Assembly: GCA_028712885.1 (NCBI GenBank)
Contig: JAQTPK010000013.1
Span: 23,336 to 57,710 of the forward strand
Direction: 5' to 3'
DNA length: 34,375 bases
DNA from: Syntrophales bacterium
GTDB taxonomy: Bacteria; Desulfobacterota; Syntrophia; Syntrophales; UBA4778
Shown here: positions 12,765 to 19,049 of the stretch, one piece after another
Layout of the letters: each line of letters begins with the position of its first letter
Numbering within the stretch: position 1 is the first letter of the stretch
The notes under the pieces: generated by a model
What the model was told of the DNA's origin: nothing
Database searches by the model: none
What the model saw: only the letters and a program-made list of their open reading frames with translations
Position numbers and translations under genes: made by a program

Positions 12765-13559
12765 TTATTCCGGCTGCCACAGATAAACGTCCAGCCGGCA
12801 ATATTCCCGGAATCCAAGCTTTTTATAAACCGGCAGTCCCATTTCAGACGAGTGCAGGATAGCGGTTCGCAACCCCGCTTCCCTTGCGCTGTCCAGCGGT
12901 TTCAGGGTCATGGCCGCACCGACCCCCCGTCCGCGAAACTCCGGCGCCACCGCTACATTGTAAATGCCTGCGGCGCTTTCACCCATGAAAACGGAAGAGC
13001 ACGCGACCGGCTTGTCCCCCCGGCAGCCGAGAAAATGCCTGTACGGCCGTCCGGGACCGAAGCCCGCACGGGCCATGGCGATGCTGAAAAAACGGGACGC
13101 CTGTGACGGCACCTCAAAGACATCCCGGAAGATATCTATCCATGCGCCCAGGCCCTCCTTGTCCTTCACCTCACGGAAATCGAATCCCGGCAAAGCAGAA
13201 TCGACGCTCCCGATCAGATGCAGGTCCGCCGCCATGCCAGGAACGGATCCCTCTGCTTTCAACCCGTGCCTTCCCAGGCGTCCTCCCAGACCCGCCGGCC
13301 TTGTCCCCGGTCCCACCCACCAGAGCATCGGCAGCCGGCGGGAAACGAAGGGCGCCATCGCTTTCCGTATATCTTCGTCCAGGCTTCCGGCGGAGAAATT
13401 GGTTCGCATGATGCTGTTGCAGAGGGGATAATCAATGCCGCTGATAAACCGGATCATCTTCGCTTCAGCCTGGTAGTCCACCTCCGGGGCGACGGAAAGA
13501 TATCTCCACGCCTCGAATAGATTTCCTTCTATTGCATCTAAAAACTGTTTTTCGTCCAT
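12765..13559 (-). CDS. GNAT-family N-acetyltransferase with N-terminal extension domain
   Basis: The 264-residue protein ends with a GNAT domain (about residues 130-264). Its acetyl-CoA binding signature is VAPEFRGRGVGAAMT, followed by the typical LHSSEMGLPVYKKLGFRE segment. The first 120 residues, with MLWWVGPGTRPA, resemble the N-terminal half of two-domain GNAT proteins. The acceptor is unknown. The ATG at 13559 follows AGGA at acceptable spacing. Longer frames upstream overlap the neighbouring GNAT gene and are not credible. The gene lies 38 bases downstream of that gene, and the two probably form an operon. Confidence 0.88.
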   Translation of the reverse strand: MDEKQFLDAIEGNLFEAWRYLSVAPEVDYQAEAKMIRFISGIDYPLCNSIMRTNFSAGSLDEDIRKAMAPFVSRRLPMLWWVGPGTRPAGLGGRLGRHGLKAEGSVPGMAADLHLIGSVDSALPGFDFREVKDKEGLGAWIDIFRDVFEVPSQASRFFSIAMARAGFGPGRPYRHFLGCRGDKPVACSSVFMGESAAGIYNVAVAPEFRGRGVGAAMTLKPLDSAREAGLRTAILHSSEMGLPVYKKLGFREYCRLDVYLWQPE

Positions 13560-13597
13560 TCGTTCGTTTCCTCGCCGGGGGAAAATCTCAACTGCTT

Positions 13598-14035
13598 TCA
13601 GCTTATCTTCAGATGCATCGGCACACGGCGCTGGAGGTCCTTGAATCCTGCTTTCCGGTACATCAGGTCGGAAGGGGGTTCCGCAATCAGGCTGATCCAG
13701 GTTATGCCGTCGGCGCGCAGGCAATCGATTATCCTGCCCATGATACTGGAACCGATTCCCCTCCTCCGGTATTTCCCGGCTACTGTGACGTCGTGAACGT
13801 ATGCGTCCCTTGCGCCGTCTGACAGGGCCCTGCCCATCCCGATGATCCCGTCTTCACCGACTGCGACAATGAAACAGTAGCTCCCGGCCACGATCCGCGG
13901 GACAAGGGCGGGAACTTCGTCCTCTTCCGACCACCATCCGGCGGCCTTGTAGAGATCCCGGATCTGATCCGTCTGCTCCTCATCCGGCTGGTTCAATTTC
14001 AAGTAAGTGATCCCGTCTTCACCCGCGGCTTTCAT
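13598..14035 (-). CDS. GNAT-family N-acetyltransferase
   Basis: This single-domain GNAT protein has 145 residues. The acetyl-CoA binding motif VAGKYRRRGIGSSIM is at about residues 86-100, and the C-terminal segment SDLMYRKAGFKDLQ is typical. GGAGGTG precedes the ATG at good spacing. Substrate and role are unknown. It lies directly upstream of a second GNAT gene and 132 bases downstream of the pyrophosphatase-like gene. Confidence 0.9.
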   Translation of the reverse strand: MKAAGEDGITYLKLNQPDEEQTDQIRDLYKAAGWWSEEDEVPALVPRIVAGSYCFIVAVGEDGIIGMGRALSDGARDAYVHDVTVAGKYRRRGIGSSIMGRIIDCLRADGITWISLIAEPPSDLMYRKAGFKDLQRRVPMHLKIS

Positions 14036-14167: not shown

Positions 14168-15649
14168 TCAGCCGCAGCCCGCCGCAACCAGGAGAAGCGT
14201 GGCGGCAAATGCGGCGGAGGCCCTGAGAAGACTGCCGCAATCCAGCGCCGCCCGGAAGGGAAAATCCGGGATTTTATCAGCTGAACCGGTCACCCGAAAG
14301 CCCGCCGGAACAGCCGTCAGGACCATTCCGATGAAGAACCCGCTGAGGGCCTCCGTATCGAGGCCGATCGAGGCAAGGTACAGGGCAAGAGACAGAAGGC
14401 ACAGAGACGGATAGGCTTCCCTCCGATCGGAGGGAAAACGTTTTCTGAACGCGCAGACGACGAGCACCATCACTGCTCCGGCGGGGATCATGGTAAAAAA
14501 ATACTCCGGAAAGCTTATCAGGAACGAAGAAAGAGGGACCCCCGCCAGCGCCGCGCATGCGGCGAGAGCTGCTGCTGCAGAAAAGAGCGATCCCGCAACC
14601 GGCGCCGCATTGTCTTCTTCGTCGGGAAAAGCCGCCGGAACCGCAATAAAGCCGATTCCCGCCAGGGCGATCCCGTAAAGCCCCGCAAAGATATAGGCGA
14701 AGCCGATGGCAGCGCAGATGAAAAAGGACGGAAGCAGTATTCTTTCTGTTTTGAAGAAAAGGTGTCCGCCGGCGGCCGGATGCCGGCGGTAGTGCCGGAC
14801 AGCCTGCCGGGCAAGCAGAGGCATGAAAATCCCGACGGCGACGGCCCAGAAAGGCCCGGTCCGGTCCATTATGCCGGCCATCCAGAGGTCGGTTGATCTG
14901 AACCCGGCTATCAGAATTTTCGAGATGAAATAAGCAGCGGCGCATACGGCAATACCGTTGAACCATACTACCCACTCTCCCTTTTTTTTCCTCGACTGCA
15001 CCAGTCCCGGGACGAGCAGAGCGGAGTTTGCCGCAAGGACCCCGGGCGCCAGCAAAGCCGCCGGAAGCATCATCCAGGCGCTCTCACCGCTTTCCATCCC
15101 GACTGCCAGCACGTCCGCCGCCGCGGCAATCACCATCACATCGGCGGACCTGTGAAGAGTGGAATCGGCAACCCTCAAGACTGATTCCGGTAATTGATCT
15201 GTCTTCCTTTTTCGCAAAGCCAGTCGCGATTTCAGATAAAGGGCGCCCGCCCAGCCGCCGGCGGCTCCCGCCGCTGCGCACGCGTTTCCTTCGGAAACAA
15301 AGATCACTGCTCCCAGTGTCGACAGCGCCGGCCCGAACGCAAGGGCGAATGCGGCAAGAGGCGCCTTGATCTTTTCTTTTTCTTCGTGAGTCTGGGAAAC
15401 CAGAAGCCGCCGGCAGGCCAGAGCCGTCAACAGGGAAATAAAAGCCCCTGACAAAAAGGAAACGGCGGTCGCGAAATCGAAAAAAGAGAGAGAGAGCGAA
15501 ATCAGGACCGAGAAAAGAAGCGGCTCCCCCGTGCCGCCTGCCGCGATTTTCCAGGGAATCGCCGCGCGGCCGTCCCTGGCGAAAGCCGATATGAGGGGAA
15601 GCATGGCCAGGACGCCCGAGCCGAGCAGGATATACGCGGAAGCTTCCAT
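14168..15649 (-). CDS. Membrane pyrophosphatase-like protein lacking catalytic motifs
   Basis: This 493-residue polytopic protein aligns by eye along most of its length with proton/sodium-pumping pyrophosphatases, which usually have 650-750 residues. Matching stretches include VSFLSGAFISLLTALA near residue 65, the FICAAIGFAYIFAGLYGIAL helix pair near 315, DNAAPVAG near 350 and ALSGFFIGMVLTAVPAGF near 435. The substrate-binding motif DVGADLVGKVE is missing; the corresponding loop reads SRLALRKRKTDQLPE. The DNVGDNVGD motif is replaced by DSTLHRSAD. The C-terminal part with the last catalytic aspartates is absent. If the homology holds, the protein cannot hydrolyse pyrophosphate in the known way. 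The ATG at 15649 shares its A with the pth stop (TGATG) and follows GAAGGA, so translation is coupled to pth. The intact long frame argues for selection rather than decay. Confidence 0.68.
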   Translation of the reverse strand: MEASAYILLGSGVLAMLPLISAFARDGRAAIPWKIAAGGTGEPLLFSVLISLSLSFFDFATAVSFLSGAFISLLTALACRRLLVSQTHEEKEKIKAPLAAFALAFGPALSTLGAVIFVSEGNACAAAGAAGGWAGALYLKSRLALRKRKTDQLPESVLRVADSTLHRSADVMVIAAAADVLAVGMESGESAWMMLPAALLAPGVLAANSALLVPGLVQSRKKKGEWVVWFNGIAVCAAAYFISKILIAGFRSTDLWMAGIMDRTGPFWAVAVGIFMPLLARQAVRHYRRHPAAGGHLFFKTERILLPSFFICAAIGFAYIFAGLYGIALAGIGFIAVPAAFPDEEDNAAPVAGSLFSAAAALAACAALAGVPLSSFLISFPEYFFTMIPAGAVMVLVVCAFRKRFPSDRREAYPSLCLLSLALYLASIGLDTEALSGFFIGMVLTAVPAGFRVTGSADKIPDFPFRAALDCGSLLRASAAFAATLLLVAAGCG

Positions 15650-16248
15650 CAATCCTTCGTTTCTTCCTGCATGGCGCTGCGCTTCCTGACATTGAAGCGG
15701 TTCATGGCCTCCTGCAGCCCGGAGGAGATGATCGCCGCGACCGCATCGCTTGCCCGGGACACCTGGCCGGCCACTCCTTCCAGCTCGTCCGGCGGGAAAT
15801 GCTGCAGTACATAGTCCTCGACCATTTCCTTCACCGCAGGCTTCCCTATCCCGAGCCTGACGCGGATGAAATCGGGAGTGCCGAGGTGCTCGATTATTGA
15901 TGCGAGTCCCTTATGCCCTCCGGCGCCCCCTCTTTTCCTGATCTGAATCCGGCCCGGTTCCAGGTCCAGATCGTCATGGATGACGATAAGACGGCCCGGC
16001 TCAGGCTTGAAAAAGGACACCGCTTCGCGTACGGAGAGGCCGCACAGGTTCATATACGTGTGCGGTTTGATGAGAACGGCTTTGGCTCTCTCGATGGCAC
16101 CCTCGCCCACCTCGGCCCGGAACTTCTTCCTGGCGGTCTGAATCGCATACCTGCGCGCCAGTTCGTCCACTACCATGAACCCCAGGTTATGCCTGGTCAG
16201 GCAGTAGCGGCCTCCGGGATTGCCAAGCCCGATGATTATATACAACAT
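15649..16248 (-). CDS. pth: Peptidyl-tRNA hydrolase
   Basis: The 199-residue Pth has the signature GLGNPGGRYCLTRHNLGF with catalytic His20 and Asn10. The conserved HTYMNLCG motif and the IHDDLDLEPG and GGAGGHKG segments follow. The enzyme releases peptides from prematurely dropped peptidyl-tRNAs and is essential in most bacteria. rplY lies upstream, but a strong terminator and a repeat separate the two, so pth probably has its own promoter; I could not identify it. The downstream pyrophosphatase-like gene overlaps its stop by one base. Confidence 0.97.
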   Translation of the reverse strand: MLYIIIGLGNPGGRYCLTRHNLGFMVVDELARRYAIQTARKKFRAEVGEGAIERAKAVLIKPHTYMNLCGLSVREAVSFFKPEPGRLIVIHDDLDLEPGRIQIRKRGGAGGHKGLASIIEHLGTPDFIRVRLGIGKPAVKEMVEDYVLQHFPPDELEGVAGQVSRASDAVAAIISSGLQEAMNRFNVRKRSAMQEETKD

Positions 16249-16501: not shown

Positions 16502-17146
16502 TTATTCTTCCTTTTCCTTCGCGGTAATAACCTCCGGCTCCTTCTGTTCCTCTCCTTCTTCGGGAGGCGCTTCCTCCACGGTTACCCGCGTCGCGGATAC
16601 GGTGGCGACGGCTATGTCCGGCGCATCGAGGGCTTCGACCCCTTCCGGCAATTTTATGTCGCCCACCATGACCGTGTCGCCTATTCCGAGACCGCTCACA
16701 TCAACTTCAACGGACTCCGGCATAACAGAAGGGAGTCCGGCAATATTGAGGTCCCTTTTCAAATGGTGCAGCTCACCTCCCATTTCCACCCCGGCCGGAG
16801 TGCCGATGATATGAATGGGGATGCCGAGAGTGATTTTATGGTCCATGCGGACTTCGTAAAAATCGACGTGGTAAGGGCTTCTCGTCACCGGAGAAGTCTG
16901 CAGTTCCTTGATCATGGCCAGCTTCTCAGTGCGATTCTTCCCGTCTTCGATCATGAGTTTTACGAAAACGCTTTCTTTTCTCTCCTTCAGAAAATCCAGG
17001 AGCTCTTCCGTGCTGACGGAAATGCTTATCGAATCGGTTCCGGAACCGTAGAAAACCGCCGGCACCCTTCCACCGGCCCTCAGCCGCCGGGCGGGTCCTT
17101 TTCCGGACTCCTTCCGAATGTTTGCACTTAATTCCATGGTTTCCAT
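16502..17146 (-). CDS. rplY: 50S ribosomal protein L25, long (Ctc/TL5) form
   Basis: The 214-residue protein has the L25 N-terminal domain that binds 5S rRNA (GKGPARRLRAGGRVPAVFYG) and the beta-domain of the long TL5/Ctc form (VDFYEVRMDHKITLGIP). It ends in an acidic tail of about 25 residues rich in Glu. The ATG at 17146 is chosen because AGGAGG lies ten bases upstream; the longer open frame has no support. It lies 35 bases downstream of prs, the usual partner of rplY in this order. Confidence 0.95.
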   Translation of the reverse strand: METMELSANIRKESGKGPARRLRAGGRVPAVFYGSGTDSISISVSTEELLDFLKERKESVFVKLMIEDGKNRTEKLAMIKELQTSPVTRSPYHVDFYEVRMDHKITLGIPIHIIGTPAGVEMGGELHHLKRDLNIAGLPSVMPESVEVDVSGLGIGDTVMVGDIKLPEGVEALDAPDIAVATVSATRVTVEEAPPEEGEEQKEPEVITAKEKEE

Positions 17147-17181
17147 TATGTAAGGCCTCCTGACTGTATCTCTTTTTTTTC

Positions 17182-18126
17182 TCAAACAAAAAGCGAGCTT
17201 ACGGAATCATTGTAGTATATTCTTCTCACCGCCTCGCTCAGATGCACAGCGACCGAGAGTATTTTCAGTTTCTTGCATTGTTCCGTTATAATCATCTGCG
17301 GGATCGTATCCGTTACGATCACCTCTTTTACTTCGGATGAGTTTATCCGGTCAATAGCCGGTCCGGAAAGGACGGCGTGCGTGGCGCAAACGGATACTTC
17401 GACAGCCCCATCGCGGGCCAGGGCTTCAGCGCCCTGGACGACTGTTCCCGCCGTATCGATCATGTCGTCAAGGATGATGACCTTTTTCCCTTTCACGTTT
17501 CCGATGATGTTCATGACCTGGGACTCATTCGGCCCCTCCCGCCTCTTGTCGATAATGGCAAGGGTAGCTCCCACCCTTTTGGCGAAGGCCCTGGCGCGCT
17601 CGACGCCGCCGGTATCGGGCGAGACGATGACCATGTTCTCGGAAGAATAGGCCCGCTTGACATAATCGAGCAGGACCGGCGTCGCAAAGAGGTTGTCCAC
17701 GGGGATGTTGAAAAAACCCTGTATCTGCCCGGCATGGAGGTCCATGGCGAGGACCCTGTTGGCGCCCGCCGTGGTTATCAGATCGGCCACGAGCTTTGCG
17801 GTGATCGGCGCGCGGGGGGCCACTTTCCTGTCCTGCCTGGCGTAACCATAATAGGGTATGACTGCGGTGATCCTGTCCGCGGAGGCCCTCTTCATGGCAT
17901 CCATGAGGATAAGCAGTTCCATGCAGTTGTTGTTCACCGGCGGGCAGGTGGACTGGACAATAAACACGTCCATCCCCCGGACGTTTTCGTTGATTTCCAC
18001 CCGGGTCTCACCGTCGCTGAATGTCGCCACATTGGCTCTTCCCAAAGCTATGCCCAGTTTATCGCAGATCTTCTTCGCCAGTTCCGGATTGGAATTACCG
18101 GAAAAAATCCTCATTCTCTCGAGCAT
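17182..18126 (-). CDS. prs: Ribose-phosphate pyrophosphokinase (PRPP synthetase)
   Basis: This is a 314-residue class I PRPP synthetase. Visible motifs are FSDGETRVEI, YGYARQDRK with the ATP-binding region, MDLHAGQIQGFF, and the ribose 5-phosphate (PRPP) loop VIILDDMIDTAGT. It makes PRPP from ATP and ribose 5-phosphate for nucleotide, histidine and NAD synthesis. The ATG at 18126 follows GAGGA with seven bases of spacing; an ATG at 18114 (MRIFSGN) is also possible. A tRNA-Gln-like remnant lies just upstream, between prs and ispE. Confidence 0.97.
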   Translation of the reverse strand: MLERMRIFSGNSNPELAKKICDKLGIALGRANVATFSDGETRVEINENVRGMDVFIVQSTCPPVNNNCMELLILMDAMKRASADRITAVIPYYGYARQDRKVAPRAPITAKLVADLITTAGANRVLAMDLHAGQIQGFFNIPVDNLFATPVLLDYVKRAYSSENMVIVSPDTGGVERARAFAKRVGATLAIIDKRREGPNESQVMNIIGNVKGKKVIILDDMIDTAGTVVQGAEALARDGAVEVSVCATHAVLSGPAIDRINSSEVKEVIVTDTIPQMIITEQCKKLKILSVAVHLSEAVRRIYYNDSVSSLFV

Positions 18127-18157
18127 CTTCAAATCCTCTGTAGATCTGTCGAAAGTC

Positions 18158-18215: not shown

Positions 18216-19049
18216 TCAGGTGGAGCGAACGGTCCAAACCGACGCCCCCTCCGATCTCATGGCAATTCCGGCTGCTTCCGCCTGCTCCTTTTCGGCGAAA
18301 ACGCCGAAAACTGTGGGACCGCTCCCCGACATCAGCGCCCCGAGGGCGCCGTGCCGCACTAAACTCTTCTTGATATTGAGCAATTCCGGATGATTTCTCA
18401 ACGTGACCCGCTCGAGATCATTCCGGAGTCCTCCCGCCAAATCTTGCAATGTCAAAAACTTGGGGATGCTAAACTGGATAATATCTTTTGTCAATCCCAA
18501 ATTAAGCCCTTGGTAGACCTCCCTGGTAGATACTTCGAATCCCGGATTGACCAGGACAAGCCACATCGGAGGAACGTCTTCGGCGGGCAGAAGCTTCTCC
18601 CCGATGCCGAGGGCCCAGGCCGCCTTTCCAAGGATGAAAAAGGGGACGTCCGCGCCGGTTTTCACCCCGATTTTCGCCAGGTCTTCCGGCCCCAAACCGA
18701 AGTCGAATATCTCGTTGAGAGCCTTAAGGGCGGTAGCCGCGTTGGAGCTGCCGCCGCCGAGACCGGCGGCAAGCGGGATGTTTTTCCTGATCTCGATTTC
18801 TATGCCCGGCGATGCGCCGACATGGGAGAACAGCAGGGAGGCCGCCTTGAATACGAGGTTCCTTCCGTCTTCAGGCAGAATCCCGCCCGGGCAATTCAAT
18901 CTTATGTCCCGTCCTCCCGGCAGGAAAACCATCTCATCGCAGAGGCTGATTTCCTGCATGAGAGATGCGATCTCGTGATATCCGTCCCGCCTTTTTCCCA
19001 GTACTTCGAGGTACAGATTTATTTTTGCCGGGGATTTCCGGATTATCAT
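18216..19049 (-). CDS. ispE: 4-diphosphocytidyl-2-C-methyl-D-erythritol kinase
   Basis: The 277-residue protein is a GHMP kinase. It starts with SPAKINLYLEVLGKRRDGYHEI, carries the ATP-binding loop PLAAGLGGGSSNAA (about residues 91-104) and TGADVPFF with the catalytic Asp, and ends with the GALMSGSGPTVFG motif. It phosphorylates CDP-methylerythritol in the methylerythritol phosphate pathway for isoprenoids. The start overlaps the DUF1844 gene stop as ATGA. It should be co-transcribed with the genes upstream and with prs. Confidence 0.96.
   Translation of the reverse strand: MIIRKSPAKINLYLEVLGKRRDGYHEIASLMQEISLCDEMVFLPGGRDIRLNCPGGILPEDGRNLVFKAASLLFSHVGASPGIEIEIRKNIPLAAGLGGGSSNAATALKALNEIFDFGLGPEDLAKIGVKTGADVPFFILGKAAWALGIGEKLLPAEDVPPMWLVLVNPGFEVSTREVYQGLNLGLTKDIIQFSIPKFLTLQDLAGGLRNDLERVTLRNHPELLNIKKSLVRHGALGALMSGSGPTVFGVFAEKEQAEAAGIAMRSEGASVWTVRST

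Follow-up and report, generated by a model that had tools for sequence, protein, structure and literature searches.

A short homolog of type A membrane pyrophosphatases, probably retained without catalysis, encoded after pth in Syntrophales

Introduction

What is the polytopic membrane protein encoded directly after the peptidyl-tRNA hydrolase gene pth in a Syntrophales bacterium, and how can it resemble a membrane pyrophosphatase (mPPase) while lacking the residues with which these enzymes act on pyrophosphate (PPi)? This question is raised by a window of 34,375 nucleotides (the whole stretch of DNA analyzed, from contig JAQTPK010000013.1 of assembly GCA_028712885.1). mPPases are among the simplest primary ion pumps. 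The coupling of hydrolysis in their cytosolic half to the gate in their membrane half is still debated (PMC10897367), and PPi metabolism is important in syntrophs (PMC4992975).

A first-pass annotation of the window proposed a pseudoenzyme family that has kept the mPPase scaffold without its hydrolysis site. Profile matches, together with shortened orthologs in two other genera, support this proposal. We consider it probable (roughly 0.78) that the protein is a descendant of a type A mPPase gene (hppA) kept as a membrane protein without catalysis, and this estimate covers both its identity and the retained loss of catalysis.

An intact reading frame overlaps pth

The gene and its upstream neighbors are arranged as follows.

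14168..15649, minus strand: putatively non-catalytic mPPase homolog, 493 aa from the ATG (alternative TTG start at 15652)
15649..16248, minus strand: pth, peptidyl-tRNA hydrolase (PF01195, E 6.9e-66)
16502..17185, minus strand: rplY-like ribosomal protein L25 (CTC) gene (maximal frame; named by eye, with tblastn synteny)
17182..18132, minus strand: prs, ribose-phosphate pyrophosphokinase (maximal frame; named by eye, with conserved synteny)

An ORF scan places the gene on the minus strand as an open frame of 493 codons with its ATG at 15649 and its stop at 14168, and the alternative frame (14168-15652) begins at a TTG one codon before this ATG. The intact 493-residue frame that had been described as overlapping the pth stop by one base is therefore confirmed, with the short-protein ATG and the pth TGA joined in GATTGATGG. 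No long open frame was found on the plus strand at 14168-15649, and 493 stop-free codons would arise by chance at the base composition of the window with a probability of ~8e-7. The rplY-like neighbor lies upstream and is conserved across the order. Downstream, positions 12765-14035 of the minus strand carry two overlapping frames (319 aa and 145 aa) that appear GNAT acetyltransferase-like by eye. The gene overlap couples translation of the short protein to that of pth, which we read as an inherited operon position and not as a tie to peptidyl-tRNA hydrolysis.

The same shortened form follows pth in two other genera

As the proposal of the first-pass annotation requires, orthologs of the same shortened form are located next to pth elsewhere. 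Two relatives of ~500 aa are encoded by the Syntrophaceae metagenome-assembled genomes UBA4054 and UBA5761, which belong to two other genera of the same family. The gene order prs-rplY-pth-X is common to the window and both relatives, where X is the short protein directly after pth, and its start overlaps or abuts the pth stop in all three genera. The metagenomic origin of both relatives might raise the concern of an assembly or binning artefact. However, three independent assemblies exhibit the same synteny with different sequences, and the chance that an artefact explains the short form is negligible.

The place occupied by the short protein is held by full-length enzymes in other families of the order. 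Among relatives that carry type A mPPase (the ~690-aa hppA), most sampled loci have a copy with its motifs intact immediately behind pth, whereas most other checked genomes of the order have a ~815-aa type B mPPase after pth instead. Because an intact hppA occupies the same place elsewhere, the short protein is the positional ortholog of type A, and the ~690-aa hppA at this place in other families points to conversion in place. Specifically, a pth-linked ~690-aa type A hppA would have become a non-catalytic membrane protein in the common ancestor of a single family.

Known members of the short form number three. A scan of GTDB species genomes recovered just the two known relatives, a whole-phylum sample of 395 genomes yielded no convincing further case, and none was found in the viral contigs searched. 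A weak profile match in genome G063 was dropped as a further member because it was without BLAST support. Type A remnants located behind type B were also sought in related genomes, and none were found.

Some neighboring loci carry other arrangements. In another family, a 42-residue piece (L086:2542-2667; genome G152, contig C190, about 18541-18666) matches residues 359-400 of the G001 short protein with 62% identity. It lies within a 94-aa frame adjoining an ABC-type ATPase fragment (named by eye), and may be a relic, a transfer or a misassembly. Genome G036 carries tandem mPPases after pth, type B and then type A (L087:2295-7174), which can be compared with the close locus numbers of SYN_02770 and SYN_02772, the two membrane pyrophosphatases of Syntrophus aciditrophicus, an organism with no soluble one (PMC4992975). 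Genome G030 has a divergent type A mPPase (L089:1751-3763) that is 48% identical to others and is not near pth on the examined stretch, and it also has a pth-linked type B.

Homology to membrane pyrophosphatases

In global alignment, the window protein is not clearly more identical to its relatives than locally shuffled controls are, and the case for homology therefore depends on local BLAST and profile scores. In a BLAST search of whole genomes, residues 172-355 of the window protein match ordinary 690-aa mPPases from its own order (E 3e-13), and two further matches are to frames of 504-539 aa from the same family. A profile of the three short proteins aligns by hhalign with ten full-length mPPases at E 2.9e-34, collinear across 493 columns, and scores up to 135 bits against type A mPPases. 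When this profile was compared with the PDB, the Thermotoga mPPase (4av3, E 5.7e-6) was the only credible match. Furthermore, PF03030 is matched by all three short proteins (best E 5e-8), as are several NCBIfam models for sodium-translocating pyrophosphatases. Hydropathy gives 15, 15 and 16 membrane segments for the three proteins, compared with 16 in type A.

The four stretches originally recognized by eye align in order with TM3, TM11, the TM11/12 loop and TM15 of mPPases. At the level of sequences and profiles, the best match is likewise to mPPases and to nothing else. Judged by these comparisons, the short protein is a true but very divergent mPPase homolog by descent. Type B enzymes form a separate group in a maximum-likelihood tree, and the window protein is left unplaced there because of its very long branch.

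Could the protein instead be an unrelated polytopic transporter whose resemblance to mPPases is a coincidence of hydrophobic sequence? The Pfam model PF03030 by itself gives the window protein 14.8 bits, below the curated cut-off of 29.7, and two AlphaFold2 runs with different lead sequences, using the three-sequence alignment only, gave models of very low confidence (mean pLDDT 37 and 38). Both facts would suit a coincidence, but in each of the three members every credible match is to an mPPase family, the alignment is collinear over the full length, and the genomic place is that of an intact hppA. An unrelated transporter is thus already contradicted and scarcely credible.

Loss of the catalytic residues

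Deletions are concentrated in four regions of the protein.

15134..15235, minus strand: remnant of the TM5/6 region, residues about 139-172; DVGADLVGKVE, EDDPRNP and DNVGDNVGD replaced or lost
14591..14629, minus strand: remnant of the TM11/12 catalytic loop, residues 341-353; DNAAPVAG compared with DNAGGIAE...TDGLDAVGNTT
14414..14446, minus strand: remnant of loop 13/14, residues 402-412; loop 62% gapped
14237..14296, minus strand: remnant of the TM15/16 catalytic loop, residues 452-471; NAGGAWDN...GDTVGDPFKDTSGP lost, loop 72% gapped

Averaged over the three short proteins aligned with 22 type A enzymes, ~55% of residues are gone from cytosolic loops, compared with ~8% from helices and ~6% from periplasmic loops. 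The cytosolic parts of TM5/6, TM11/12, 13/14 and TM15/16 that hold the PPi and Mg ligands have been removed. The DxGxDLxGKxE and DNxGDNxGD motifs for PPi and Mg in TM5/6 are deleted or replaced in every member, and most conserved Asp and Lys residues of the acidic/Lys cage in TM11/12 and TM15/16 (DNAGG... and GDTVGDPFKDTSGP) are lost, with the TM11/12 loop 67% gapped over the three proteins. Alignment across the three orthologs therefore bears out the initial observation that the PPi/Mg signature motifs are replaced or absent. The ion gate (R on TM5, D6.50, E6.53/57 and K16.50) is also eroded: E6.53 is lost in both alignable members, the TM5 Arg is not kept, and D6.50 persists in one or two of the three short proteins. 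The worst-kept helix is TM13, which is 38% gapped.

Known mPPase chemistry and structure imply that a protein without the Asp/Lys cage (helices 5, 6, 11, 12, 15 and 16) neither binds nor hydrolyzes Mg-PPi and does not pump at its expense. It follows that the short protein would be without PPi or Mg-PPi binding, without hydrolysis, and hence without PPi-driven pumping.

What was kept and what was gained

Other parts of the protein either retain mPPase character or carry residues that type A enzymes rarely have.

14831..14875, minus strand: start of TM9, residues 259-273 around DRTGPFW; GPFW from mPPases, D262-R263 new and common to three genera
14651..14689, minus strand: TM10/11 hairpin, residues 321-333, FAGLYGIALAGIG; best-kept mPPase stretch
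15290..15292, minus strand: E120, derived acidic residue in periplasmic loop 4/5, common to three genera
14351..14353, minus strand: E433, acidic residue at the periplasmic start of TM15, in 3/3; Glu in just 2/22 type A rows
14222..14224, minus strand: R476, where mPPases have the TM16 ion-gate lysine (K16.50); Lys or Arg in 3/3

The membrane half is best kept at TM9-11 and TM15. E120, D262, R263 and E433, which are common to all three proteins and rare or absent in type A, are predicted to lie on the periplasmic side, and R281 is a shared charged residue of similar rarity on the cytosolic side. Five charged invariant derived columns were observed against 0.07 expected from block shuffles, a comparison in which the bias of an optimized alignment remains.

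Retention or decay of the frame

Perhaps the gene is slowly decaying, and its frame is still open just because the protein tolerates in-frame deletions and needs no more than a hydrophobic composition. The divergence data lend this some weight. Short proteins of different genera are 25-34% identical, where pth reaches 50-72% and type B mPPase 83-88%, and such fast divergence indicates weak constraint on most positions. Codon-position GC of the short-protein gene is flattened relative to pth and type B, and decay could be permitted by redundancy with type B. Relaxed constraint is thus clear, and strong selection is not, for three proteins whose rate of evolution far exceeds that of pth or type B.

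However, decay does not readily account for the open frames. When the three genomes are compared, identity at fourfold sites is at or close to the chance level, in pth and type B as well as in the short protein, and neutral sequence has therefore been largely randomized. Despite this saturation, 0 stops are seen in any of the three short-protein frames where 14-16 are expected in each (probability 6e-8 to 8e-7 each). In addition, deletions have spared helices and periplasmic loops, the derived charged residues are common to all three, and the contact between short-protein start and pth stop has been preserved throughout. We therefore regard decay as rather improbable. As far as three sequences can indicate, the frame appears to have been kept by selection across divergent lineages, as is expected of a retained pseudoenzyme.

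A second pyrophosphatase and possible functions

Each of the three genomes also encodes a ~815-aa type B mPPase on another contig, which we presume to belong to the divergent Na+-regulated H+-PPase group. The copy in the window genome has intact motifs. Family I soluble pyrophosphatase (PF00719) was searched for in the three genomes and is absent. Type B of the short-protein family (L001, L052 and L053) shares 82-86% identity with its pth-linked counterparts in family f6 and genome G117, and only about 55-61% with type B of most other families. It was not seen next to pth, and its location away from that gene may reflect relocation or transfer.

Redundancy provided by the unlinked type B mPPase would have freed the type A protein from catalysis. 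Given that the membrane half is retained and that a charged patch is newly predicted on the periplasmic side, a passive role in that part of the membrane is favored, and the short protein would now work passively at the periplasmic half. Tentatively, it could be a dimeric, non-hydrolytic conductance or a solute or ion sensor, formed by the old exit-channel half (TM9-11, TM15 and the basic residue of TM16) and the new E/D-R/E patch. This specific mechanism is less likely to be right than wrong, and our preference for it over slow decay or a partnership with type B is tentative, with some probability also left to functions other than these three.

Pseudoenzymes often act as dead partner subunits, and the short protein might accordingly serve type B mPPase, or some other membrane complex, as a regulatory or structural partner that forms heterodimers at the TM10/13/15 interface. 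mPPases form homodimers that display asymmetry between their subunits (PMC10897367), the short protein co-occurs with type B in all three genomes, and TM10 and TM15 are among its better-kept helices. Yet TM13, which is part of the same interface, is the most heavily gapped helix. Moreover, the gene derives from type A, an enzyme with only ~28% identity to type B, and lies apart from the type B gene, and no such partner was found in dozens of relatives that have type B. A partner role is accordingly unlikely, although less so than decay.

In a broader proposal, a PPi-independent channel, carrier or periplasmic sensor would have arisen from the mPPase fold once its cytosolic catalytic layer was cut out and a charged site was gained on the periplasmic side, with a new family born at the hppA locus. 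We hold this broader version somewhat more readily, but still at less than even odds.

Comparison with known systems

The mPPase fold is known, but a catalysis-free form conserved at one locus appears to be new. No report of an inactive or pseudo-mPPase was found in a limited literature search covering few subscription journals. In a natural protein that has the membrane half and lacks the catalytic one, the two are separated, and whether it conducts would be a direct test of the bare scaffold. The locus also shows enzyme and pseudoenzyme at one place in related energy-limited syntrophs.

The nearest counterpart is the ~690-aa type A hppA (PF03030), which shares with the short protein its helix order, its patterns at TM3, TM9, TM10/11 and TM15, and its place in prs-rplY-pth-X. 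The short protein differs in being ~190 residues shorter, in having lost the catalytic cytosolic loops and the ion-gate Glu, and in carrying new charged residues mostly on the periplasmic side. Among solved structures, the sole credible match to the three-member profile is the Na+-pumping mPPase of Thermotoga maritima (4av3, 5lzq), which, unlike the short protein, is a catalytically active chain of 735 residues with cage and gate intact. The ~815-aa type B mPPase belongs to the same superfamily but is full length, 83-88% identical between the three genera and only ~28% identical to type A. It is pth-linked in most other checked genomes of the order, a linkage not seen in these three. Finally, the short protein resembles pseudoenzymes in general, which are dead homologs kept by selection, in that the scaffold is kept and the catalytic residues are lost, but it differs from other pseudoenzymes in that entire loops were deleted, where others have lost their catalytic residues through point changes.
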